A stretch of DNA of 42,417 bases, taken from positions 1-42,417 of IMG/VR virus record IMGVR_UViG_3300017737_000017. The stretch is one strand, 5' to 3'. The notes under the pieces are model-generated. The model worked only from the letters and a program-made list of their open reading frames with translations, searched no databases and was not told the DNA's origin. Below, piece after piece: positions 25,187 through 40,741 of this stretch; positions within the stretch are counted from its first letter, which is position 1, and every line of letters begins with the position of its first letter. The translations under genes were made by a program, and so were the position numbers. Source of the stretch: a virus.

Positions 25187-28100
25187 ATGACTAGAGAACA
25201 ATTAGGAGAGGTACTTCAAAAGATGGCTGCTGATGGACAGCCAAAAGAAAACATGGATAAAGTCGCTGCTCATTACCAGGGCGTTATAGCGAAGTCAAAA
25301 GAAGCAGAAGAAAACCCTCACAAAAACTCAGATGGCACTTGGAAAACAGTTGCCCAAATAGAAGAGGAACAGTTTGGAACAAAAAAAGAAAAAGGCTCTC
25401 AGACGACCGATGCGACTGTAGAGCCTCAAATAGTATCCGAAGGTACGGAATCACCATCGGAAGATGGTTCATCGGAATCACAACCTCAAGGTTATCAGCC
25501 TAATACCCCAATAACAGATGGTGGTTACGAATATAAGTTTGATGTAAACAAAGATGGCTTAGGTGTTTACTATACTAGAAAGGTAGGTGAAAATGACTGG
25601 ATAAACGTTTCTGAAACTCAACCTGGTAGTGCGGCTGAAGTTTCTATAGCTAGTGAGTTTGGGCACGCTGATTTTGATAAGTCCGCATACTTCAAACAAA
25701 AGAAAGAAATAGAAAAGCAAAAAGAAGAGGAGGAAAGAAGAACATCAAACCCTACGTCATTCGCTGATATAGGTATGACTAAAGATTTAGATGGTAGTTT
25801 ACTACAGGGAGATTTTAGGTACGTTTTTGATAAGAATGATCAGAAATGGTACAAACAACCTAAGCATGGTATACCTGTAATGGCTGTTAATCAAAAAGGA
25901 GATGAAGTGTCTGAAGAGCTAGTAAGCCAAATAAACTCTTTACATAATGATGGTCAAGCTTCTTCTATAGGTATTAAAAAAGAGGGTGATATGTCTAGCT
26001 ACCTGTATGCGCCGATACCTCCAATGCCTCTCGATATAGACTTAAACGTTACTTCTAAAAACGATTGGGAAGGAGCATTACACACCCAAATGAGTGGTGA
26101 TGATGCTAACAGGGAATCTATTAGAATAAAATCGTTAGGTTATGATGATGAGTTTGATATAAGAAACACCAAGACTTGGGTTAACATGGAAGAAAGCGCT
26201 TTTGAATCTGCTATTGAAAATGCTTACCCAGGTATTTCTGTAGAACAAACTGGAGCGGGAAACGCTGCTTATATATCGGTTCCTTGGAGTGATAAAAAAA
26301 TATACGTAGATTTAAAACCAGAAGATGGTTTGTTTGGTAGTTCTAATGATGAGGTAGACAAGGTGTTAAGAAATTTTAAAAGAAGATACTTAGAAGAAGT
26401 AGAGTCTGGTAAGATAAATAACTCTTTGTCACAATTACTAAACACTAGAGGCACGGGTGATACATTTGTTGAGAGCGATGTTGTTAAGTTTAATGATATG
26501 GCTAAAGAAATAGATGGTTTAAACTTAAGCGTAACAGAAAAGTTTCAGTACGATGGCGCTGGTGATATGATTGCTGGTTATGAGGTTTTTGCTGGAGGTG
26601 AGACAAAATGGTTTGAAACAGCACCTGAGGTAAACAATTTTATATACGAAAACATGTCTAGCGAAGACGTAGCAGCTATACATGCTCACGAGCTGAAATT
26701 AAAAACAAGCTTAATAAAAGAAAGAGAAACTTATGTAGATGATAAGTACGAAAGCCTTGAAAGAGAAGAAGTTTTAGAGACGTTTTACAAAGACTCATTA
26801 CTACCAACCATGATGTTTGACCTTGGAGAAAGTGGCAACCACAGCGGTATGTCTCAAGAGGGTATGGCTATTGTTAAGAACTACATGGAGGTACCACTGA
26901 AAGAAAAGAAGATGGTACCAAATCCTATACAAAAACCAGGGCAACCACCATTGGTTGAGGGCGAGGTAACCGTAGAGGACTGGGAGAGAAAGAAGTACGA
27001 GGTTATAAAGTCTGAAATGAAAAAGAAGCTTTCACCAAAAGATTATGCCTTATTTGAAGAGTACATATCCAAAGGAGATATACTTGGTACTGAAAACATG
27101 AATAAGACTAAGTTGAAAATGGCTGAAGATAGTGGCAAGTCATGGACAGAAAGACAGCTAGACAAAGGTAATAAGTCTATAATAAAAGATAATGTAAACA
27201 AAACCTTAGCAAAGTTAAACAGAGAAAAAAATGACATAGGCATTAAGGTTAAAAAAATGAACGAGTCTTTTAAATTAGACGTTAAAAGACTTAATGTTGT
27301 TAAAGAAAACTTAGCTCTAACAATTAGAGATTCTGGAGCAGGCGTAACGGTTACTGGTGAAGGAGACAATATGGTTATGACTGTTTCGCACCCAGACGCT
27401 GAGGTTCAGAAAAAACTACAAGCTCAGCTAAACGACTATCAGAGAAGTCAAAAGACAATAAGTAGTGAGTATAAAACAACGTATGAAAGCGTTATGGGCC
27501 AACACGATAGTTGGATGAAAAAAAATATGCAAGATCTTAAGACAAACCAAGATCTTCAAGAGTTTACTTCTAAAGAGTATGATTTTAGAAAGATAATAGG
27601 GCAAGAGTTTACTGATGGTTTTGAATCTATGGCGTTTAGTATACCAGCTATTTTTGGAAATGATTACTCTATAGATAGGGTTAACGAGGTCAATGCTTCT
27701 AAGTCAAATTTAAAAACAGCGTTAACTTATGATCAAGCCGTGGAGTTTGGTGAAAAAGGAGAGTTTGCTCTTAGAACAACAGCATCTCAAGGTGCCAACA
27801 CTATAGTTGCTATCGGGTCTAGTATGTTGGGTATACCACCTGTATGGAACACAGCGCTACTAGCGACTTCTTTTGGTTTATCAGCTGGTGGCCAAACTAG
27901 AGCTGATCTTACTAACAGAGTTAAAATGGGTGAGGAGGCAGATGAAATGCTTACTAAACTAGAAGAACAATATAAATCAGGAAGTGTACCTTACGAGCAG
28001 TACAGAGAATCTAAGTTAGCTTTACAAAAAACAATTGCAGCAGGCGATATATCACCAACTCAACTTTTAGGCGCAACTTGGACAGCTGCGGCTATAGAAG

Positions 28101-31100
28101 GTGGTGTTATGGCTGTGCTAGGTACTATACCTAACTCCATGAAACTTGTTAAAGATTTTTCTGGAAGCATAGATGATATAGGTAGAGTTGTAACAAGAGG
28201 TAGGTTGGGGTTAGGTTACGATATAGCAAAAGGACTTACAACCACTATTGGAGGTGAAGTATTAGAGGAAACAATAATATATGCTGGAAATGAGTTTTCT
28301 CAAAACATGATATTAAATGGTAATTTAAAAGATGCTGACTGGTCACAGTTTGACGACACTTTTGTTACCTCTGTTATTATGTCTGGACCAATGTCTGGAC
28401 CAGGTGTTCTTTATTCTAACGTTGTTGGTCATGTACAAACAAAGCAGGCTAGAACTGTTTACAACGATGTTATGCAGAATGTTAGTAAGATTGAGAACAT
28501 GATGAAGAATCTAAAACCTGGGGACGTTGTTGGTAAAGAGCAGTTAGCTGTTGCTTGGAAAACTGAAATGGAAAAACTAGGTCCTATACAGTCTGGTATG
28601 GAAACAGATGCTATAAATCTTGGTTCTGATAAGTTGAAAAACTTAATTAAAAATAATATAAATTTAACGCAGTTACACTCTGAAGCTAATATAAAACCTA
28701 CTGATTCTGAAGCTACCAAAGAGGCTAAGATAAAAGATCACGTTGAAGGTTTGAAGGGTGAGGAAAAATCAAACTTTGAGGATAGATTAAAACTAGCAAA
28801 CGATAACATCAACAAAATAAAAAGTAGTGTTGACTATGGTAAGGAAGGTACCGCTATGGATTACGATGTTAATCCAGAAACTGGAGATGTAAACGGAGGT
28901 ATTATATATAACATGTTTGGAAGTCTAGGTATTGAAGTAGGTAACGCCTTAGCTAAAAAAGATCCTAAGTTTGAAAAGCTATCAAACAGAGAGCAAGCTG
29001 GTTTAGTTTTAGAAGAAATAAAAAATAGACAAGTAAAAGCAAACGACAAAAGAATAAGAGACAACAAAGCTCAAGTCGAAGCTGTAGAAAAATCTGTGTA
29101 TGATGGTTTAACTTGGGAAGAGTGGAAAAACAAAAATAACAAGAAAAACAGAAGAAAGGCACAAGAAGATGCTGAATACACTAGAAGATCAAACTCTTTA
29201 CTAGCAAATGAAACAGAAGCTGTAATAACAGCTACAGAGCAAAACAATAACGCTAAGTCAATTCTTGGGGACGAAAGACTAAAGTCACTACAAATATTAA
29301 ATCCAGACAATGGTGATACTGACGGTAAGTTCACTAAGGAAGAAATAGAAATGAAGATTAGGGAAGAACTTTCTGATAATCCAGCTGAAGCAAACAGAAT
29401 AATACAGGGCTTAAGAAAAGGTAGTACAAATGGAGTTATAGTAAACAATAAGTACATTGCTTTAAATCCTGAGGCAGCTAGAGAACAAATGAAAAACGGT
29501 AATCTTTTAGCTGGTACTGTTTTATCACATGAGATAAGTCACTTTATAGATGATGCTGTAATGACAAAACCTCAAAGAGTGGATTATGCTAACAAACTAA
29601 ACGCTTACATGGCATCTGAAATGCCAGCTATAGATAGAGAAGCTATACATCTGTTAGAAGGATTAGCTGATGATAGTCCAGCTAAATGGGAGAGTGGAGT
29701 TCCTTTTGAAGGTCAATCACCTACAGTTAAAGATGAGTACACTAAAAGAGTGCAAGACGTTTTGCAGCAAGATAGAAACGCTGTATACAAGAAAAAAGTT
29801 CAAAAACAAGGTAGAGGTGTTGGTAAAAACGTGATGAGTTTGTTTAACGCTGATTTTAATATAAAATCACCTAACGATGCAGCTGCTTGGGTTGGTAGTT
29901 ATTTAACTGGTTTTGAAAATGGTGAGCTAGGTAAGTTGCAAAAAAGAAAGTTTGATAACACTCAAGCTCAACAAACAAATGATCAGGGTTTCAGAGAGTC
30001 TAGTAATCTACAAGGAACACTAGACACTAGATCACAAAATCCGACAAAAAGAGACGTTGGAAGAATGGTTGACGAAATGATAAGTTTAAAGCCTAACGGT
30101 GACTATGTTGAGGCTGGAGGTTTACTTCAATCAGAGTTAGGTCAACAGTTAGGTGGAATGATGGAGAACACAACTAGAAGACTTTACGATAACATACCTG
30201 ATGATGCAAAACGCACGGTGTCTAGGAATGATTATAAGGAGGCTTTACTGATGGACGCTTATAGTATGATCAAAAACGAATACGATCCATCTAAACAAGA
30301 TCTAGACGCCTTTGTTAGTAGTAGGTTAAATTTAAGAGCAAACGCTTTGGCAACGGCACTAGGTATAGAATCTTCTATAGAAGAAGGTGGCGGTGGAATA
30401 GCTTTAGATGCTAATGAAGTTAAAGATTTAGAAGGTGATTTAGGTATAGACGATGTTTTGAATATTGAAACAATTGAAAACCCTACATACCCGCTAACAG
30501 ACAACATGGTTATGTCTAACGCTGATGCTGAAAACGTTAATAACTCTATACTATTAAGCGTTGGTACTGAGCTACCAGCTATAGATGCTCAGGTTAGTAA
30601 AAATAAATTTACAACACCGTTTATAGCTGCGCTTAAAAAAGCTTTTGGCGTTAAGGGTGGACCATTGCACGTTGCTGTTCAAAACATGATGGGTAAAACC
30701 CCAGCTGAAATAGATAGATTTTTAACAGATCCCGTTAACAAACAAGCGATACTAGATGCTTTACCAACAGGTTGGTTGTCTAAAAACATTCCAGCTGCTG
30801 TTGAAAAATCTGTTAATGGAACTAGAATAGATAGTGAAGATGGTAAAACAACTATACTAACACCTAACTGGACACCTGATTGGAAGGGTCAGAAAATAGA
30901 TAGATGGAACGCTAAAGACGAAGGTCCTTATAGAGGTAACACTGCTGGACCGCCTGTTGTGCGTAGAAACCCAAAAGCTATAGAAACAGTTTCTAATGCT
31001 GATCTTAGAAGTAAGTTTGTCAAAGGTAAAACTATGACTGAATTAAATCGTAATGGTTTGACTAAGTTGCAGTTAGCTATAGCTCAAGAAATAGGGTTAG

Positions 31101-34100
31101 AGCTTTTCAAGAAAGATATTAAAGCTGACGGCCCTTTAACAGAAGTGTTTAAGCAAAGGCAAGATGTGTTTGATAGAGTTTTAGCTGAAAACTATGCTGA
31201 AGAAATATCTAGGCAAATGGAAAGAGGTACAGCTAAGTTAAGTGAAAATCCAGAGACAGAGCTAAATATAACTAGAGGTAGTGTCATAGTAGATGAGGCT
31301 AACAACTTAGTTAAAGAAGTTATACAAAACTACAATAAAGACTTACAGTTTGGTGGATTAGAAGCTGCTTTAGCAAACTACTCTCCAGAGATGATAAACG
31401 CTTTTGAGTCTATGGGTATATTTGAAATGTTTAACACTGATACTAAGCAAGGTTTTGTTAAGCCTACCAAAGCTATGGATTGGTTAAGTTTTGAAAACCA
31501 AAAAGCGGCATACACTGATAACGGTACTCAGAGCACATTCATGAAAGATCAACAAGCTAAACAAGCGGAGGTTATGATAGATATACTACCTCCACAGGTT
31601 GTTAGAGTTTTAGGTAAAGAGTTTTTTGGCATGACTAGCGCTAGACAGCTAGACGCAGCTAGAAATAAACAAGATGGAACGCAAGGTAAGTACGTATACT
31701 TAGACGATAAGCTTATACGTAAGGCGGCTAAAAAAGATACTAATGTAAAACTACCTTTTGATCCTTTAAAGCTTGAGATGTTAAATTCTGGAAGTGGACT
31801 AATGGTTGATATACAAAAAATCCAAAACATGGATTTAACTGTAGAAGAAAAGCAAAAAAGACTAGAGGCTTTACAGCCAAGAATAGACGATGCTAATGCT
31901 AACAATAAGAAGTTTTTAACTTGGTACGCAACTCAAAATGCTATCGCTATAGCTAAAAACCCAGATTTAGCAATTGGCCTTGCTGGTCAAATGCAGGGAG
32001 CTACTAATAACGTTAAGGGTTTTAGAGCTTACACTAATCTTGGTATGATAAAATTACAGAAAGGATCTCAAGCTCCTTATCTAACAAGAGCTGGTAAACC
32101 AACTAATGTAAAACCTACAAACAAAAACGGTGGTTATATAAATAGAAACCATCCAGACTTTACAAGAGCGTTAGAGCTTGCTGACGGTAACGAAACTAAA
32201 GCAGCTGGTTTGCTAAAATACAAAGGAGAACATATAGATCCTAGTGCTAACGTTATGCAAGAGCTATTTGCATCTACACTAGAATTAGCAGATATATTAA
32301 AAACTACACCAGAAAAATATCACGATAAAATAGTAAGAGAACACCAAGCTAAGATGGATAACATCTTAACTAACTTTGATCAGTCTCTTGGACCTATAAT
32401 AGATTCTAAAATACAAGATAGTAAACTTGGTTCTACTAGTAGATTAGGTTGGGCTAGAAACTTTTCTGTTTCTGATCAGATTAAAAACTACTACAACACT
32501 AATGATGGTGGTGGGGTTGATAATGTTATAAAATCAAGAACTACTCAAACGCTACAGGTTTTATCTCAAAAAGCTAGAATAGGTAATGAAATAGTTTCTA
32601 AAGCAACACAGGTTGCTAGATCATCAGAAAATCCTACTAGAGGTATAACCGTATTAGACTTTGATGACACACTAGCTACTAGTAATTCTTTGATTAGGTT
32701 TACTAGACCAGATGGAACTACAGGAACGCTTAATGCAGAACAGTACGCTAAGACGTATGAAGAGTTAACTGACTTAGGTTATAAGTGGGATTTCTCAGAG
32801 TTTAACAAAGTTGTTGGTGGTAAAATAGCTCCATTGTTTCAAAAAGCATTAAAACTACAAGGCAAGTTTGGTCCTGAAAATATGTTTGTATTAACGGCTA
32901 GGCCACCTCAAGCTGCTAAGGCTATATTTGATTTTTTAAGTGCTAACGGTTTAAACATACCTATGGAGAACATAACTGGCTTAGCTAACTCTACAGCAGA
33001 AGCTAAGGCGTTGTGGATAGCGGATAAGGTTGGTGAAGGTTATAATGACTTTTACTTTGCTGACGATGCTTTGCAGAATGTACAAGCTGTAGATAACATG
33101 TTAGAACAATTTGATGTTAAACGTAAAGTACAACAAGCGAAGTTAAGTGAAAACCCTTCTGACGCTTTTAATGTTATACTTGAAGAAACAATGGGTGAAG
33201 GTCGTGAGAAAATTTACTCAGAGGCAAAAGCCCAAATACGTGGTGCTGAAAAAGGTAAGTATAAATTCTTTATACCACCATCAGCAGAAGACTTTAAAGG
33301 ACTGTTATATAGTTTTCTTGGTAAAGGTAAAAAAGGAGAAGCACACATGGACTTTTTCCAGAAAACACTAATACAACCCTTTGCTAGGGCACAAAGAGAA
33401 CTTGATTCCGCTAGGCAGTCTATATCTAACGACTACCAAGCGTTGAAAAAAGACTTTAAAGGAGTTACAAAAAATCTTAACAAAAAGATGCCTGGAAGTG
33501 ATTATACTTTAGACCAAGGTATTAGAGTTTTGTTATGGGATAGAGCCGGCTTTGACATACCTGGTTTATCTAAAACAGATAAAGCGGAAATATTAAAAGC
33601 TGTTAACAACAACCCGGATGCAGTTCAGTTTGCAAACACACTTAGTTTAGTTTCAAAACAAGACAATGGATATTCTAAACCTGGAGATTTTTGGACAACC
33701 GAGAGTATAGCTAGTGATCTTAACGACATAACAAATACTATTGGTAAGGATCAATTCTTAACAGAGTTTAAAGAAAACAGAGAGCAAGTATTTGGTAAGT
33801 GGGTTGGTGGAAAGCTAGTTGGACCTAACATGAATAAGATAGAGGCTTTGTATGGAAGTAGGTTTAGAGAGGCTTTAACAGATATGGTCTGGAGAATGGA
33901 GAACGGTAGTAACAGAAACTTTGGAAGTAATAGACTTACAAATCAGTTTGCTAACTGGGTAAACAACTCTGTTGGTGCTATTATGTTCTTTAATGCTAGA
34001 TCCGCTGTGCTACAAACTTTATCTTCTGTTAACTTTATAAACTGGGGAGATAACAATGCTTTTAAAGCTGCTAAGGCATTTGCTAACCAACCTCAGTTTT

Positions 34101-35350
34101 GGTCTGACTTCGCTAGAATATTTAACTCAGACATGTTAAAACAAAGAAGGTCTGGTTTAAGAACCGATGTATCACAATCTGAAATTGCACAAGCAGCTGG
34201 AAAAGGTGGTAACAAAGTAAAAGCTGTTATGGCGTACTTGCTTAAAAAAGGATTTTTACCAACACAAATTGCGGATAGTTTTGCTATTGCTTCTGGTGGT
34301 GCTACTTTCTTTAGAAATAGAACAAAGACTTATATGGATCAAGGTATGAGCAAGGCGGATGCTGAATCAAAAGCTTTTATTGATTTTCAAGAAATAGCTG
34401 AAGAAACACAGCAGTCATCAAGACCTGATTTAATATCACAACAACAAGCATCTCCACTTGGTAGGCTTATATTAGCTTTTCAAAACACACCAATGCAGTA
34501 CGCTAGACTTACTAAAAAATCTGTTTTAGATCTAGCAAACGGTAGAGGTGATTTTAAGACTAATGTTTCTAAAATACTTTACTACGGAGCTATACAAAAC
34601 GCTATATTTTCTAGTTTGCAAAAAGCAATGTTTGCGTTTGCATTCGATGATGATACTGACGAAGAGAAAGAAAAGCAAAAAAGAAAAGAACTTCAAGTTT
34701 TAAACGGTATGGTAGACTCTCTACTAAGAGGTATGGGTGTTGGTGGCGCTATTGTTTCTACCGCTAAGAATATGATAATGGCTTTTGCTGAACAAAACAA
34801 TAGTAGAGACTTTGACTATTCAGAACCTTTGATAGCTATGCTTAACCTATCTCCTCCAGTTGGATCTAAGGCTAGAAAAATATTGTCAGCGGGTAAAACG
34901 TTTAAATACAAGAAAGATGAAATAATGTACATGGATAAGTTGGACATCGATAATCCTATGTGGAACTCAATAGGTAACGTTGTTTCATCTACAACCAATA
35001 TACCTTTAGATAGAGTTATAAATAAGGTTAACAACTTAAAGGAAGTTATTGACCAAAGAAACTCTGCTTGGCAGAAACTAGCTTTATCTCTCGGTTGGAA
35101 CACTTGGGATCTTGGAGTAGAAAATGAAGAGTTTAACGAGGCTGAAAAAGAAGTAGCTAAAATTAAGAAAGAGAAATCAGAGGCAAAAAGAAAAGCTAAA
35201 AGAGAAGAACAAAAAAGACTTGAAGAGATAGAAAGAAAGAAAAAAGAAGCTCGAATGGTTCAATGTTCTGCTAGAATTAGAAAGGGTAAAGGACCTCGAT
35301 GTAAAAATAAAACAGAAAACAAAAATGGAAAATGCTATGCGCATCAGTAA
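25187..35350 (+). CDS. Giant polyvalent virion protein (metallopeptidase, HAD-like, LPD38, zinc finger)
   Basis: This is a single uninterrupted 3387-aa frame. Two Y-x-F-D-x-N repeats lie at about 115-130 and 207-222, and a charged helical part follows. Two hydrophobic Gly/Ala stretches at about 865-905 and 957-985 may touch membrane. H1448-E-I-S-H1452 is a zinc metallopeptidase motif. A sigma-region-2-like helix lies at about 1685-1730. A HAD-like domain at about 2487-2650 has DFDDT at 2491-2495, LTAR at 2569-2572 and D2626-D2627. An IPPSAEDF-type region (about 2690-2760) and an LPD38-like region (about 2925-2990) follow. The end is a coiled coil and a C3360/C3372/C3383/H3386 zinc finger resembling DUF5763. 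Polyvalent proteins of this kind are thought to be ejected with the DNA and to act on host targets. No RNA polymerase motif was found. Confidence 0.85.
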   Translation: MTREQLGEVLQKMAADGQPKENMDKVAAHYQGVIAKSKEAEENPHKNSDGTWKTVAQIEEEQFGTKKEKGSQTTDATVEPQIVSEGTESPSEDGSSESQPQGYQPNTPITDGGYEYKFDVNKDGLGVYYTRKVGENDWINVSETQPGSAAEVSIASEFGHADFDKSAYFKQKKEIEKQKEEEERRTSNPTSFADIGMTKDLDGSLLQGDFRYVFDKNDQKWYKQPKHGIPVMAVNQKGDEVSEELVSQINSLHNDGQASSIGIKKEGDMSSYLYAPIPPMPLDIDLNVTSKNDWEGALHTQMSGDDANRESIRIKSLGYDDEFDIRNTKTWVNMEESAFESAIENAYPGISVEQTGAGNAAYISVPWSDKKIYVDLKPEDGLFGSSNDEVDKVLRNFKRRYLEEVESGKINNSLSQLLNTRGTGDTFVESDVVKFNDMAKEIDGLNLSVTEKFQYDGAGDMIAGYEVFAGGETKWFETAPEVNNFIYENMSSEDVAAIHAHELKLKTSLIKERETYVDDKYESLEREEVLETFYKDSLLPTMMFDLGESGNHSGMSQEGMAIVKNYMEVPLKEKKMVPNPIQKPGQPPLVEGEVTVEDWERKKYEVIKSEMKKKLSPKDYALFEEYISKGDILGTENMNKTKLKMAEDSGKSWTERQLDKGNKSIIKDNVNKTLAKLNREKNDIGIKVKKMNESFKLDVKRLNVVKENLALTIRDSGAGVTVTGEGDNMVMTVSHPDAEVQKKLQAQLNDYQRSQKTISSEYKTTYESVMGQHDSWMKKNMQDLKTNQDLQEFTSKEYDFRKIIGQEFTDGFESMAFSIPAIFGNDYSIDRVNEVNASKSNLKTALTYDQAVEFGEKGEFALRTTASQGANTIVAIGSSMLGIPPVWNTALLATSFGLSAGGQTRADLTNRVKMGEEADEMLTKLEEQYKSGSVPYEQYRESKLALQKTIAAGDISPTQLLGATWTAAAIEGGVMAVLGTIPNSMKLVKDFSGSIDDIGRVVTRGRLGLGYDIAKGLTTTIGGEVLEETIIYAGNEFSQNMILNGNLKDADWSQFDDTFVTSVIMSGPMSGPGVLYSNVVGHVQTKQARTVYNDVMQNVSKIENMMKNLKPGDVVGKEQLAVAWKTEMEKLGPIQSGMETDAINLGSDKLKNLIKNNINLTQLHSEANIKPTDSEATKEAKIKDHVEGLKGEEKSNFEDRLKLANDNINKIKSSVDYGKEGTAMDYDVNPETGDVNGGIIYNMFGSLGIEVGNALAKKDPKFEKLSNREQAGLVLEEIKNRQVKANDKRIRDNKAQVEAVEKSVYDGLTWEEWKNKNNKKNRRKAQEDAEYTRRSNSLLANETEAVITATEQNNNAKSILGDERLKSLQILNPDNGDTDGKFTKEEIEMKIREELSDNPAEANRIIQGLRKGSTNGVIVNNKYIALNPEAAREQMKNGNLLAGTVLSHEISHFIDDAVMTKPQRVDYANKLNAYMASEMPAIDREAIHLLEGLADDSPAKWESGVPFEGQSPTVKDEYTKRVQDVLQQDRNAVYKKKVQKQGRGVGKNVMSLFNADFNIKSPNDAAAWVGSYLTGFENGELGKLQKRKFDNTQAQQTNDQGFRESSNLQGTLDTRSQNPTKRDVGRMVDEMISLKPNGDYVEAGGLLQSELGQQLGGMMENTTRRLYDNIPDDAKRTVSRNDYKEALLMDAYSMIKNEYDPSKQDLDAFVSSRLNLRANALATALGIESSIEEGGGGIALDANEVKDLEGDLGIDDVLNIETIENPTYPLTDNMVMSNADAENVNNSILLSVGTELPAIDAQVSKNKFTTPFIAALKKAFGVKGGPLHVAVQNMMGKTPAEIDRFLTDPVNKQAILDALPTGWLSKNIPAAVEKSVNGTRIDSEDGKTTILTPNWTPDWKGQKIDRWNAKDEGPYRGNTAGPPVVRRNPKAIETVSNADLRSKFVKGKTMTELNRNGLTKLQLAIAQEIGLELFKKDIKADGPLTEVFKQRQDVFDRVLAENYAEEISRQMERGTAKLSENPETELNITRGSVIVDEANNLVKEVIQNYNKDLQFGGLEAALANYSPEMINAFESMGIFEMFNTDTKQGFVKPTKAMDWLSFENQKAAYTDNGTQSTFMKDQQAKQAEVMIDILPPQVVRVLGKEFFGMTSARQLDAARNKQDGTQGKYVYLDDKLIRKAAKKDTNVKLPFDPLKLEMLNSGSGLMVDIQKIQNMDLTVEEKQKRLEALQPRIDDANANNKKFLTWYATQNAIAIAKNPDLAIGLAGQMQGATNNVKGFRAYTNLGMIKLQKGSQAPYLTRAGKPTNVKPTNKNGGYINRNHPDFTRALELADGNETKAAGLLKYKGEHIDPSANVMQELFASTLELADILKTTPEKYHDKIVREHQAKMDNILTNFDQSLGPIIDSKIQDSKLGSTSRLGWARNFSVSDQIKNYYNTNDGGGVDNVIKSRTTQTLQVLSQKARIGNEIVSKATQVARSSENPTRGITVLDFDDTLATSNSLIRFTRPDGTTGTLNAEQYAKTYEELTDLGYKWDFSEFNKVVGGKIAPLFQKALKLQGKFGPENMFVLTARPPQAAKAIFDFLSANGLNIPMENITGLANSTAEAKALWIADKVGEGYNDFYFADDALQNVQAVDNMLEQFDVKRKVQQAKLSENPSDAFNVILEETMGEGREKIYSEAKAQIRGAEKGKYKFFIPPSAEDFKGLLYSFLGKGKKGEAHMDFFQKTLIQPFARAQRELDSARQSISNDYQALKKDFKGVTKNLNKKMPGSDYTLDQGIRVLLWDRAGFDIPGLSKTDKAEILKAVNNNPDAVQFANTLSLVSKQDNGYSKPGDFWTTESIASDLNDITNTIGKDQFLTEFKENREQVFGKWVGGKLVGPNMNKIEALYGSRFREALTDMVWRMENGSNRNFGSNRLTNQFANWVNNSVGAIMFFNARSAVLQTLSSVNFINWGDNNAFKAAKAFANQPQFWSDFARIFNSDMLKQRRSGLRTDVSQSEIAQAAGKGGNKVKAVMAYLLKKGFLPTQIADSFAIASGGATFFRNRTKTYMDQGMSKADAESKAFIDFQEIAEETQQSSRPDLISQQQASPLGRLILAFQNTPMQYARLTKKSVLDLANGRGDFKTNVSKILYYGAIQNAIFSSLQKAMFAFAFDDDTDEEKEKQKRKELQVLNGMVDSLLRGMGVGGAIVSTAKNMIMAFAEQNNSRDFDYSEPLIAMLNLSPPVGSKARKILSAGKTFKYKKDEIMYMDKLDIDNPMWNSIGNVVSSTTNIPLDRVINKVNNLKEVIDQRNSAWQKLALSLGWNTWDLGVENEEFNEAEKEVAKIKKEKSEAKRKAKREEQKRLEEIERKKKEARMVQCSARIRKGKGPRCKNKTENKNGKCYAHQ

Positions 35351-36392
35351 AATACTAATATTATTTTTAGTGCTATCAATTAGTACTAAAGCACAAACAA
35401 ATTTTGACGAGTTTTGTAAAAAGACTTTTAAATTTTCAACATTTTATATTGCTGCTAACGGAGGTACTTCTGTTTCAGATGTAGATGTTTTCTCCGTAGA
35501 GAATGGTCTTGAAACTTCTATAGTAAAAACACCTTACGACTACAACTTAGCTATGGGTATACGTAAGATAGCTAGGTTTGGTTATGAAAACAAGGCAAAC
35601 ACTTTTTATGACGGCACAGAGGAGTCTTGGTCTGACGGCGCTAATATAGGTAAAGTGCCTGGTTTAGAGTTTTTATTTGAGGTTGATTACACTAGACAAC
35701 AAGGGGATACGTATCTAGATCAGCATCATTTCCTGAGATACGTGGGTGATAACTATATTATAAAAGGAGAGTACCTTGAAGACGGTTTTGCTGATATAAA
35801 ATACTTTGAAACGTCTGAGAGATACAGGTATAAAATTGGTAAAAAATTCTCTTTGAACTTGGGTTTAGCTCAAAGGTTGTCAGAACCGTATGGTTACGAT
35901 CCATTAGAGCAATGGGTTTTAAGCAACGGAGATATACACTATACATATCTAGCGCTACAAGAAGGATATAACGTTGATGTTTACAACGGTGAATATTTTG
36001 ATCCTTCAGGAAATTTAGTAGCTACAAGTAAAGAAGTTTGGGAATCTGTGATTATACCTAAAGCTCTGTCAGATTACTCTGAAAGAAAAAGAAACGAGCT
36101 AGAAAACAAGATGCTACAATCGCTTGTTGTAGGCTTTGATTTTTATCATTATAAAAAAGATTTTTGGTTTCACGCGTGGGCAAGCTTAATGCCTTACCAT
36201 TATGATGATGGAGGTAGTTATACTTATCACAAGTACAATAACAACGAGCAGTGGTATGACTACTCTGGTGGAACTATATTCGGCTACAAATATAATAAAC
36301 ATTTAGGTACTTTTGTTGAAGGTAAATACAATAAGTATTGGAACAGAGAGTGGTATGATTTTAAATTAGGAATAAATTACGTAATATTTTAA
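35337..36392 (+). CDS. Secreted probable outer-membrane beta-barrel protein
   Basis: The product is 351 aa from the ATG at 35337 (355 aa from the alternative start 35325). I prefer 35337 because it gives a classic Sec signal peptide, MRISKILILFLVLSISTKAQ, cleaved near KAQ as in Flavobacteria. The mature part is rich in aromatic residues and alternating strands (KFSLNLGLAQRLSEPYGY, FWFHAWASLMPYHY) and ends LGINYVIF, a terminal Phe as in outer-membrane barrels. It begins inside the 3' end of the giant gene (14-nt overlap). Family not recognised. It could act in superinfection exclusion, as a receptor-like decoy, or in outer-membrane disruption during lysis; none of these is shown by the sequence. 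Confidence 0.7.
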   Translation: MRISKILILFLVLSISTKAQTNFDEFCKKTFKFSTFYIAANGGTSVSDVDVFSVENGLETSIVKTPYDYNLAMGIRKIARFGYENKANTFYDGTEESWSDGANIGKVPGLEFLFEVDYTRQQGDTYLDQHHFLRYVGDNYIIKGEYLEDGFADIKYFETSERYRYKIGKKFSLNLGLAQRLSEPYGYDPLEQWVLSNGDIHYTYLALQEGYNVDVYNGEYFDPSGNLVATSKEVWESVIIPKALSDYSERKRNELENKMLQSLVVGFDFYHYKKDFWFHAWASLMPYHYDDGGSYTYHKYNNNEQWYDYSGGTIFGYKYNKHLGTFVEGKYNKYWNREWYDFKLGINYVIF

Positions 36393-36394
36393 AA

Positions 36395-36670
36395 ATGGCA
36401 AAAGAACTAAACGAAGACACAGGTTTTAACGTAAGCATTAAAACATTAATAGGTATAGGGGCTGCTATATCTACAATTATAGGTATGTGGTTTGCTTTAC
36501 AGGCAGACATTGCAGACGCTAAAGAGCTACCAAAACCAGAAGTTGGTAGAATGGAGTTTCAAATGAAAGACGAAAATATTCGACAAAGTATTATGAATAC
36601 AGAGAAAAACGTTGAGAAACTTGAAGAGCGAATGATAAGAATGGAAGACAAAATAGATCGACTAAGATAA
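36395..36670 (+). CDS. Membrane-anchored coiled-coil protein
   Basis: This is a 91-aa protein with one membrane segment, IKTLIGIGAAISTIIGMWFA at about residues 15-34. A periplasm- or cytoplasm-facing helical tail with heptads follows (ENIRQSIMNTEKNVEKLEER, MEDKIDRL). A single N-terminal anchor plus coiled coil is the layout of inner-membrane spanins and of XhlA-type lysis proteins, and it lies between two exported proteins. There is no signal-peptidase site, so it should stay in the inner membrane. It could bridge to an outer-membrane partner (a spanin-like pair with the barrel protein upstream), but this is speculation. It starts 2 nt after the barrel stop. Confidence 0.65.
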   Translation: MAKELNEDTGFNVSIKTLIGIGAAISTIIGMWFALQADIADAKELPKPEVGRMEFQMKDENIRQSIMNTEKNVEKLEERMIRMEDKIDRLR

Positions 36671-36676
36671 AATCAA

Positions 36677-37000
36677 ATGAAAAAATTAATTTTAATAACG
36701 ACTGTACTTTGTAGTAACATGGCTTTTGGGCAAATGAAAGCCGTTCACTTTAACGCTGATTGGAACACTGATAACGGTGTTGAGTGGTTTGAAAAACTTT
36801 CAGATGTAAAGAAAGAGCACATGGACATCGGACATGGCGACTGTCAATCTAAATATAAAATAGCTATCGTACCAACAATACTTATTTTTAAAGATGGCGA
36901 GGAGGTTGCTAGATTTCAAGCCGATCTTAGCTTTAAAATGTTAGCTACAAGAAAAGAAATACAAGCAGAAATAGATAACCAATTAATGAGCGATTTTTAA
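36677..37000 (+). CDS. Periplasmic thioredoxin-fold protein lacking the CxxC site
   Basis: This is a 107-aa protein with a signal peptide (MKKLILITTVLCSNMAFGQ, residues 1-19) followed by a short thioredoxin fold. The strand KAVHFNADWN (21-30) sits where thioredoxins have FWAxWCxxC, but here both catalytic cysteines are replaced (N-T-D-N). The second half keeps the cis-proline signature IVPTILIFKDGEEVARF, with P66. The only cysteine in the mature part is C56. It is therefore predicted to be periplasmic and redox-inactive, perhaps a binding or chaperone version. It lies 6 nt after the membrane coiled-coil gene and abuts the adhesin gene at 37001. Confidence 0.75.
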   Translation: MKKLILITTVLCSNMAFGQMKAVHFNADWNTDNGVEWFEKLSDVKKEHMDIGHGDCQSKYKIAIVPTILIFKDGEEVARFQADLSFKMLATRKEIQAEIDNQLMSDF

Positions 37001-38893
37001 ATGAAAAAGATATTACTTTTAACAATTTTACCTTTTTTAATGTTTGCACAGGGACCTGGTCCTTGTGTTCCTATATTAATAAACATAAACTTAGATCAAT
37101 ACCCTAGCGAGACTAATTGGGATATCAAAGATAATTATGGTTCTATTGTTTTGTCCGGTGGGCCTTACGATAGTGTACCAAGCTATCAGCCTCAAATGAT
37201 AATGAACTGCTTGCCAGTAGGTCAGTTTACATTTACTATATATGATCAGTATGGTGATGGCTTACAAGGCTCGCTTTGGGGAGGTAACGACGGATCGTAC
37301 TACGTGATTCAGTGTGGAGATACCTTGGTTTACGGTAACGTACCAGACTTTGGGACAGATTCCACTCACATGTTAATGTCTGACACGTGTATTCCACCTC
37401 CACCAATTCCAGGCTGTATGGACGAAGATTATTTAGAGTTCGACCCAGCAGCCACAGTAGATAATGGTAGTTGTTTTACCTTAAAAATATACGGGTGTAC
37501 AGATAGTACAATGTTTAATTATGATTCTCTTGCCAACCACTTAGATTTTGTTGATCAATGCGATTACACTTTAATATTAAAAGATTTGCTAGGCAATGCT
37601 TGGATCGGTTCATATTTAGAGATAAGACAAGGAGACACAGCTTATCAGTTTCAAATGGATTCACTTGGTCCAGAGCAACATTTTGATATAGTGCTAGACG
37701 CTCCAGAGCCTTTTGAAGTAGAATTTTTTGTTGTACAACAGGCTAGCGGAACTACGATAGAGTGTGGTTTTGAAATAATAAACCCAATAGGAAACACAAT
37801 TATAGATATACCACCAACTCAACTAGATGCCTTTGTTGTTTATCCTGGTTTTGCTTATTGTGGTGATGGTTGCGAGTCTTATATATTAGGTTGTTTAGAC
37901 ACAGCTGCTGTGAACTGGAATTTTTATGCCAACACCTCTGATAGCTCTTGCTACTACCTACCCGGTTGCACTAGCCCAGCGTATTTAGATTATCACGTAG
38001 ATACTACAAATAATATTTTTAGAGATTACCATGTTCAGGATAGTTGCTTAGTTTTAGCAATGTTTGGCTGTATGGATAGTTTAGCTTTTAACTATGATAG
38101 TTTGGCTAATGTAGATAACGGTGGTTGTTTACCTGTTGTTACGGGTTGTATGGATGCTTTTGCTTTTAATTACAATTCTAACGCAAACACTCCCGATACT
38201 TGTATACAAATAATATATGGCTGTATGAGTAGTATAGCTTTTAACTACGACTCTCTAGCTAACACAGATGATGGTAGTTGTATTGAATTTATATACGGTT
38301 GTACTGACTCAACAATGTTTAATTTTAACCCTCTTGCTAATGCTGACGATAGTGGCTGTACTCCTTTTATACTTGGCTGCACGGATCCTTCTATGTTCAA
38401 CTATGATGTTTTGGCGAACACTGAAGATTTTAGTTGTATTCCTTTTTTATATGGATGTATGGATTCCAATGCACTTAATTATGACTCGACTGCAAACACA
38501 GATAATGAAAGTTGCATTGAAATTGTGGTTGGCTGTATGGACCAATCTGCTTACAATTATAATAGTTATGCTAATTTTGACGATAGCTTTTCTTGTCTTT
38601 TCGATGCTAATTGTATTTCTGGTCCTGGAAACCCCTACTGGCTCAATGATGATTGTTATGCGTGGGTAATAGATGTAGATGAGTATTGTTGTGATGTTGA
38701 GTGGGACGAGATATGCCAACTTACTTACAATTACTGTGATAGCACTTATGTTGGTCCCTTACCTAAAAGATTTATAAACAAAAAATTAATATCAATTACA
38801 GATATACTAGGTAGACCTTCTAATATTATTAAGAACAAATTGTTGTTCTACCTATATGACGATGGAACTGTTGAAAGAAAAATAAAATTATGA
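37001..38893 (+). CDS. Secreted cysteine-rich repeat adhesin with T9SS-like C-terminal domain
   Basis: This 630-aa protein has a signal peptide MKKILLLTILPFLMFAQ (1-17) and a first beta domain at about 18-132 (FTIYDQYGDGLQG core, as in Bacteroidetes surface proteins). It carries 11 copies of a G-C-M/T-D-x-x-A-x-N-Y-D-x-x-A-N-x-D-x-x-x-C unit; seven are consecutive at residues 356-535 with a ~26-aa period. A YCCDVEWDEIC module lies near 562. The last ~44 residues (KLISITDILGR, then LLFYLYDDGTVERKIKL) match the style of type IX secretion sorting domains. The protein should leave the cell through Sec and T9SS and be displayed or released. It overlaps the next gene by 4 nt (ATGA). This is unusual cargo for a phage. 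Confidence 0.8.
   Translation: MKKILLLTILPFLMFAQGPGPCVPILININLDQYPSETNWDIKDNYGSIVLSGGPYDSVPSYQPQMIMNCLPVGQFTFTIYDQYGDGLQGSLWGGNDGSYYVIQCGDTLVYGNVPDFGTDSTHMLMSDTCIPPPPIPGCMDEDYLEFDPAATVDNGSCFTLKIYGCTDSTMFNYDSLANHLDFVDQCDYTLILKDLLGNAWIGSYLEIRQGDTAYQFQMDSLGPEQHFDIVLDAPEPFEVEFFVVQQASGTTIECGFEIINPIGNTIIDIPPTQLDAFVVYPGFAYCGDGCESYILGCLDTAAVNWNFYANTSDSSCYYLPGCTSPAYLDYHVDTTNNIFRDYHVQDSCLVLAMFGCMDSLAFNYDSLANVDNGGCLPVVTGCMDAFAFNYNSNANTPDTCIQIIYGCMSSIAFNYDSLANTDDGSCIEFIYGCTDSTMFNFNPLANADDSGCTPFILGCTDPSMFNYDVLANTEDFSCIPFLYGCMDSNALNYDSTANTDNESCIEIVVGCMDQSAYNYNSYANFDDSFSCLFDANCISGPGNPYWLNDDCYAWVIDVDEYCCDVEWDEICQLTYNYCDSTYVGPLPKRFINKKLISITDILGRPSNIIKNKLLFYLYDDGTVERKIKL
38066..38596 (+). repeat. Seven tandem Cys-rich repeat units inside the adhesin gene
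   Basis: Seven consecutive units, each starting with a G-C-M/T codon triplet and ending in a Cys, recur every ~78 bp (25-27 codons). They are diverged at nucleotide level but share G-C at the start, N-Y/N-F in the middle, A-N and the final C. Four more diverged units lie upstream in the same gene (from about 37412). Paired Cys in each unit suggests a disulfide-stabilised rod after export. Confidence 0.8.
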
Positions 38894-40285: not shown

Positions 40286-40741
40286 ATGATAAGCAAACAC
40301 ATAAGCGACAAAGAAGGTGTTTACAGCAATACCGCTATTAGAAGAGGTATAGACAATACACCTACAGATGATCACCTACACTTTATGCAAATAATTGCTA
40401 ACGAAATATTTGAACCACTTAGAGAGTATGTTGGTGGACCAATAAAAATTAATAGCTTTTATAGATCGCCAGAGCTTAATACCGCTATTGGTGGCTCTAA
40501 AACCTCACAACACTGTAAAGGTCAAGCAATGGATATAGACGATACCTTCGGTCACATGACTAATGCTCAGATGTACGAGTGGATTAAAGACAACTTAGAT
40601 TTTGATCAAATGATTTGGGAGTTTGGTAATGATAGCAACCCTAATTGGGTTCACATTAGTTATGTTTCTGCTGAAAAAAACAGAAACAGATGTTTAAAGG
40701 CATACAAAGAAAACGGTAAAACAAAATACAAAGTAATTTAG
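40286..40741 (+). CDS. Endolysin, M15-type zinc peptidase
   Basis: This 151-aa protein has the peptidase M15_3-type metal site: S-Q-H76-C-K-G-Q-A-M-D83-I-D, and W121-V-H123 near the C-terminus. H76, D83 and H123 are the probable zinc ligands. The SFYRSPELN stretch (about 53-61) is a typical substrate-binding segment of these enzymes, which cut peptidoglycan cross-bridge or stem peptides. There is no signal peptide, so it needs the holin at 733 to reach the cell wall. It is the last sizeable gene of the plus-strand block. A virion-associated role (tail peptidase) is possible but less likely given its small size and lack of extra domains. Confidence 0.85.
   Translation: MISKHISDKEGVYSNTAIRRGIDNTPTDDHLHFMQIIANEIFEPLREYVGGPIKINSFYRSPELNTAIGGSKTSQHCKGQAMDIDDTFGHMTNAQMYEWIKDNLDFDQMIWEFGNDSNPNWVHISYVSAEKNRNRCLKAYKENGKTKYKVI

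Follow-up and report, generated by a model that had tools for sequence, protein, structure and literature searches.

What does a phage gain from encoding an outer-membrane β-barrel? The question is raised by the linear IMG/VR virus record IMGVR_UViG_3300017737_000017 (42,417 bases, referred to as a whole as the window), in which an open reading frame (ORF) at 35337-36392 on the plus strand encodes a 351-aa protein predicted to be such a barrel. An initial annotation, made from the sequence alone, had pictured a barrel of a flavobacterial phage that modifies the host surface on its own, in the manner of superinfection porins. The barrel is, however, one gene of a conserved, co-transferred four-gene cassette, the other members of which encode a small coiled-coil protein, a thioredoxin-like protein and a large Cys-rich protein that bears, in relatives, a sorting signal of the type IX secretion system (T9SS). 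The picture of a stand-alone porin is therefore not supported as it was drawn, and what the initial annotation lacked is that the barrel appears to serve as the membrane component of a conserved cassette for surface secretion.

Linkage was counted in the 105 of 202 distinct barrel loci having at least 4.5 kb on each side, the partner genes being recognized by profiles and the Cys-rich protein, termed the cargo below, by its repeat motif. Near the barrel, the coiled-coil gene was found in 104 loci, the thioredoxin-like gene in 104, the cargo motif in 99 and all four genes together in 98. BLAST located the cargo in six of the seven misses (L024, L126, L130, L131, L154, and L158), which brings the complete cassette to 104/105; the seventh, L180, has the barrel and the cargo, and neither the coiled-coil nor the thioredoxin-like gene. 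Because these loci had been fetched by the barrel, a reciprocal set was fetched via the thioredoxin-like family: from the 78 loci examined, those with less than 6 kb on either side or with duplicate sequence were dropped, and in all 28 distinct loci that were left both the barrel and the coiled-coil gene are present, with the cargo motif in 21. On inspection, most of the motif-less loci with sufficient room have a Cys-rich ORF with a T9SS-like tail directly before the barrel (e.g., L303, L316, L321, L325, and L329). The gene orders are rotations of one series, with the barrel first and the cargo last in 45 loci (34 + 11), the cargo first in 30, the barrel last in 21, and a few others. Over all fetched loci, duplicates kept, the median spacings of the four neighbor pairs are 11, -1, 17, and -1 nt, that of the cargo-barrel pair being -1 nt.

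The second cassette gene of the window (36395-36670, plus strand, as are all features located here) encodes a 91-aa protein in which one hydrophobic stretch precedes a heptad-like coiled coil, and which is predicted to be membrane-anchored on the inner-membrane side. The 13 members of this family that were scanned gave weak matches to PHROGs of unknown function, other matches being single and weak. The third gene (36677-37000) encodes an exported 107-aa protein with weak thioredoxin matches, one relative of which exceeds the Pfam cut-off. Among 171 distinct members of its family, a region with an FNAxW-type motif is found in 161; only 4 of these 161 have a CxxC anywhere, and in the three displayed it sits in the signal peptide, so the CxxC of a thioredoxin active site is not a feature of this family.

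The fourth gene (37001-38893) encodes the cargo, an exported protein of 630 aa and 35 Cys, with a signal peptide and repeats of the type GCxDxxAxNYDxxANxDDGSC. Among cargo proteins picked mostly by a visible YPNP motif, the T9SS sorting domain TIGR04183 scores above cut-off in five of seven (L121, L155, L100, L068, and L056; not L060 or the window) and PF18962 in 4/4 relatives. The window cargo has a different, short C-terminal tag (38768-38890, ending in ITDILGRPSNIIKNKLLFYLYDDGTVERKIKL), its tail reading ITDILGRPSN and then, further on, LLFYLYDDGTVERKIKL. Three ORFs of a Flavobacteriales metagenome-assembled genome (MAG), all of them exported-looking, have tails of this short type, and a further ORF of the same MAG combines cargo-type repeats with a YPNP-type tail. 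Since ORFs of that MAG bear them, both tail types look like host sorting signals, the short one, we infer, by extension. In five loci (L022, L029, L034, L035, and L039) a second huge Cys-rich repeat ORF lies upstream of the barrel besides the cargo; it is about 1334-1365 aa long, open at the locus edge, and has no T9SS-like tail. A small ORF of 49-60 aa, starting M[IN].NWI and ending GFE[IL], is seen beside the cargo or the barrel in several loci (e.g., L125:7798-7947, L148:4581-4730, and L168:9083-9265).

The barrel gene itself is an intact ORF, the start of which overlaps the 3' end of the preceding gene. An alternative in-frame ATG occurs at 35325; aligned relatives start near 35337 instead. 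The N-terminus, MRISKILILFLVLSISTKAQ, reads as a signal peptide (35337-35390) with the ..AQ end typical of flavobacteria, as the initial annotation had seen, and is presumably cut about before the Q of KAQ. Judged by motif, the N-termini of 198 distinct relatives are signal peptidase I-like in 155, lipobox-like in 42 (e.g., ..CAAPKKCC, which replaces the usual signal peptide) and neither in one. Relatives are encoded on 314 and on 546 IMG/VR stretches in two scans, which may overlap and of which the best 80 each were kept. In an alignment of 100 sequences, identity to the window protein ranges over 55-77% and 66 positions are invariant. With hundreds of relatives and so many invariant positions, the barrel is, on sequence grounds, a protein family under constraint and no chance ORF. 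Outer-membrane barrels are recognized by the β-barrel assembly machinery (BAM) through their C-terminal strand, and the ending GxN[YF]x[IV][FYWRL], present in 100/100 aligned barrels, fits such a strand, in agreement with the initial annotation. The terminal Phe that it had stressed is common without being universal (F in 131, L in 41, R in 19, Y in 5, and I in 2 of the 198 relatives). One relative of 330 aa (L040:6001-6993) lacks, in frame, about 20 residues in a conserved segment, approximately 82-101, that is modeled at low confidence in the window protein. Two barrel loci, L181 and L183, lie about 119 kb apart on one IMG/VR contig of 245,646 bases, each barrel being 89% identical to the query; they are either two copies or the result of a concatenated assembly.

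The product of 35337-36392 is, by structure prediction, an outer-membrane barrel. The AlphaFold2 (AF2) model built from 100 sequences (mean predicted local distance difference test, pLDDT, 80.2; predicted template modeling score, pTM, 0.72) has about 12 membrane strands and supersedes an earlier model built from 22 sequences (pLDDT 67.8, pTM 0.60). The amphipathic alternation noticed at the outset stands up to shuffling: over the 12 predicted strands it amounts to 1.30 versus 0.81 ± 0.18 in shuffled strands, a value reached by 29 of 5000 shuffles. Outer-membrane barrels top the Foldseek comparison of the deeper model with the PDB (NanC, E 7.4e-06); the first model matched PorB, NanC, and NalP, with a best E of 6.5e-08, stronger than that of the deeper model. 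All 50 matches listed by VIA-align are bacterial outer-membrane or Omp85-type barrels, led by TamA (Z 11.6, with 179 residues aligned at 3.7 A), CymA (11.0), and OmpG (10.9), families absent from the rows, such as PorV chains, not being excluded thereby. A non-barrel fold was not seen, and the probable barrel of the initial annotation is to this extent upheld; the matches show a common fold class and no specific function, and the outer-membrane location is likewise a prediction. Between strands 7 and 8 the model places a 75-residue insertion (residues 183-257, with a helix at 232-254; 35883-36107), which is conserved (mean majority residue 72%) and which, from strand parity, probably faces the cell surface.

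That the barrel belongs to no recognized family, as supposed from the start, is in line with the searches. No match was obtained at E<=1 in Pfam, PHROGs, and NCBIfam, nor at E<=5 when the barrel profile was run against PDB sequences. FadL appears in the match list of the weaker first model, where other barrels score alike. One close structural relative was found, a viral protein of 342 aa in BFVD, A0A516LKJ4, the fold of which is alike over the full length (TM 0.72/0.74, E 1.2e-24) at 22% identity. The same library lists several named phage outer-membrane proteins (phiAS5 OMP, a cyanophage OMP-like protein, and uncultured Caudovirales porins), against the earlier statement that phages rarely encode barrels; these are likewise phage barrels, but match the window barrel weakly in fold (query-normalized TM about 0.17-0.35). 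A tblastn search of two barrels, one coiled coil, and one thioredoxin-like protein against a collection of phage isolates found no convincing relative, and two cargo proteins gave repeat-level matches only, to cyanophage S-CAM3 and a marine single-cell virus. A profile search of nine phage records, run without a positive control, gave 0/9.

Chromosomal relatives were also sought. Among 296 genomes of the order of one MAG (G001), the sole profile match is the already known and probably viral contig of that same MAG, and a pattern scan of genome contigs gave four barrel loci, each of them from a MAG or a binned assembly. These loci lend no support to a chromosomal origin: no clear chromosomal copy emerged, and misbinned phage is the likely source. 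One of them, L084, is on a contig equal in length to an IMG/VR virus contig (L159), the two ranges being nearly identical. Another cassette contig, CALBOT010000064.1 (L083), is binned in a MAG named for the archaeon Nitrosopelagicus and is probably a misbinned phage.

The cassette is not confined to one type of phage. Among 25 cassette contigs, a gp23-type capsid was found in 8 and the podovirus-type capsid phrog_13704, which is that of the window, in 3 others; none has both, and 14, many of them fragments, have neither. In a tree of 85 barrels, 8 of which are labeled gp23-type, the labels change 3 times versus a mean of 7.7 after shuffling, the remaining barrels being labeled from a match to the giant protein upstream, in some cases (L224) with uncertainty. 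The labels cluster and yet interleave; for example, the barrels of the podovirus-type loci L125, L155, and L163 group with that of the gp23-type locus L098 (support 0.972). The cassette thus moves as a block between unrelated virions, and an action on the host is therefore more probable than a place in the particle.

The genes of the window itself follow a podovirus-type order, in which terminase, portal, and capsid are followed by a tail-type protein of 1791 aa and a giant one of 3387 aa, the gene roles being read from sequence and order, except those of portal, capsid, holin, and endolysin, which rest on searches. The portal found matches in 87 phage records, none of them reaching 60% identity, from phages of Flavobacterium (68), Cellulophaga (15), Tenacibaculum (2), and Maribacter (1), with one Caudoviricetes, and the flavobacterial affiliation first assumed is thereby borne out. 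The giant protein (25187-35350) lies directly upstream of the barrel and outside the cassette, and a homolog occupies that place in many podovirus-type loci. Its sequence reads as having a Cys-rich tail (CSARIRKGKGPRCKNKTENKNGKCYAHQ) and a metalloprotease-like HEISHF motif.

Regarding what the cassette may do, the PorP/SprF barrels of flavobacteria provide an analogy. In the parts available of the papers on them, these barrels are described as binding type B cargo, as needed for its secretion and as holding it on the surface (PMC9143113; PMC12618676); their genes commonly lie directly after the cargo gene, e.g., in SprB/SprF pairs (PMC12618676; PMC9143113), and SprF has been linked to the gliding track (PMC12635249). 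As in SprB-SprF and PG1035-PorP, the phage cassette sets an outer-membrane barrel of about 300-350 aa beside a T9SS cargo gene. Since PorP/SprF hold cargo and, in 54/105 loci, the cassette gene next upstream of the barrel is that of the phage cargo, it can be proposed, with belief and doubt in balance, that the cassette supplies a phage T9SS cargo together with a barrel that carries or anchors it, PorP/SprF-like though with no detectable homology.

According to this proposal, the barrel would be exported through Sec, the host BAM would insert it into the outer membrane, and late in infection the cargo would enter the periplasm, where the thioredoxin-like protein, non-catalytic and periplasmic, would keep it competent. 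The cargo would exit via the host T9SS translocon, and at the surface the phage barrel would collect or hold it, in the way that PorP/SprF barrels handle theirs; the coiled coil would tether the barrel from the inner side. Once displayed, the cargo would coat the infected cell and its debris and would most likely stop adsorption by other phages or by the phage's own progeny. In a variant of this scheme, the barrel would merely anchor or protect the cargo after its PorV-dependent release. The gain for the phage would presumably lie in a block of superinfection or re-adsorption, and superinfection blocking, raised in the initial annotation, may be the purpose.

Several observations weigh against a carrier or anchor of this kind. 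The cargo lies at the opposite end of the cassette in 45/105 loci, including the window, where it is the third gene downstream of the barrel. The window cargo matches 0 NCBIfam families, TIGR04183 among them, and has the short tag alone. The scoring tags of its relatives are of type A, and type A tags in F. johnsoniae are reported to use PorV and to need no dedicated barrel (PMC12618676); cargo tags of the phage cassettes are of type A or short, type B not being shown, and the coiled-coil and thioredoxin-like genes are additions relative to PorP/SprF systems. PorP/SprF are described as 14-stranded FadL-type barrels (PMC9143113, in the part available), as opposed to the 12 strands predicted in the phage barrel. 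Neither PorP/SprF (TIGR03519) nor PorV (NF033709) matched the barrel in NCBIfam at E<=1; TIGR03519 was not found in the window, controls being silent too, though the model does match in MAGs G001 and G002. By hhalign the barrel reached a probability of 12% over 68 columns with 11 SprF-type ORFs and 0.2% with 5 PorV-family ORFs, the control comparison of SprF with PorV giving 63% (global), and membership in either family was rejected on these values. In the barrel model, residues 82-102 are of low confidence, and barrel closure is putative. The partnership between barrel and cargo is likewise putative.

Other explanations have to be weighed against the proposed carrier. It is unlikely that the barrel alone blocks superinfection by masking or displacing a host receptor, with neighbors that aid its folding or are passengers. 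Lambdoid porin genes are a precedent for a superinfection block by a barrel, and the predicted surface protein with its long putative surface insertion at 183-257 would suit such a role, but linkage in 104/105 loci and in 28/28 reciprocally is unexpected for passengers, and conservation as strong as that seen, insertion included, is unlike a receptor-specific surface decoy. A transport porin or nutrient-uptake protein supporting infection is decidedly unlikely: OmpG, CymA, NanC, and KdgM are among the structural neighbors, yet the similarity is at fold level only (4-13% identity in VIA-align), and the linked secreted cargo would be left unexplained.

The cassette could also open or weaken the outer membrane at lysis, the coiled coil being an inner-membrane spanin-like protein and the barrel its outer-membrane partner. 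The late gene position, a coiled-coil layout that is i-spanin-like by eye, the M15 peptidase endolysin that family searches place downstream in the window (40286-40741) and the holin at 733 would agree with this. When relatives of three query endolysins of M15 and amidase types were sought, a homolog was found at most 6.5 kb away in 25/101 loci, but none so near in the other 76. No spanin family was matched by the 13 coiled-coil members scanned, and in L084 a separate Rz-like spanin candidate (phrog_739; L084:4335-4634) lies shortly before the cassette, the coiled-coil gene therefore not being the sole spanin candidate of that phage. With a T9SS cargo of 600-1400 aa left without a role, involvement in lysis is very unlikely. 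That barrel and cargo are virion parts, e.g., a fibre and its anchor, is scarcely credible given their signal peptides and T9SS tags and the occurrence of the cassette with two unrelated capsid types, even though its neighbors in the window include structural and fibre-like genes, and Cys-rich repeats of the cargo type, at about 30-40% identity, occur in an S-CAM3 protein labeled virion structural protein (NC_031906, 36526-37002).

Phage T9SS cargo as such has already been published. In the parts available of these accounts, the cargo of a cryoconite phage (Cryophage) is called a unique occurrence, linked to inter-strain competition or superinfection (PMC7468147), and T9SS sorting domains are noted beside crAss-BACON genes of cluster 2 (PMC6949934). 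Like the present cassette, both are cases of phage genes with T9SS sorting domains, and use of the host system is proposed in the Cryophage paper, whereas the same parts of the two accounts are silent on any four-gene cassette or linked barrel of the outer membrane (PMC7468147; PMC6949934). A full-text literature search, which covered few subscription journals or preprints, found no phage cassette of T9SS cargo and outer-membrane barrel, and the four-gene cassette with its barrel appears new. It may tentatively be seen, with somewhat more doubt than belief, as a phage-encoded outer-membrane carrier for the host T9SS, its lineage being unrelated to those of PorV and PorP/SprF. With the cargo, a helper in the periplasm, and a tether in the inner membrane, this carrier would make up a complete system of surface display that moves horizontally and gives the infected cell a new coat.

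The flavobacterial marine viruses with this cassette thus probably change what the infected cell displays on its surface. Surface changes by Bacteroidota phages are, in our view, little explored, and the T9SS is a main exporter of surface proteins in these abundant marine bacteria. With the cassette it can be tested directly whether lytic phages commandeer the T9SS, and the new barrel lineage offers a route to study the capture of T9SS cargo at the cell surface.

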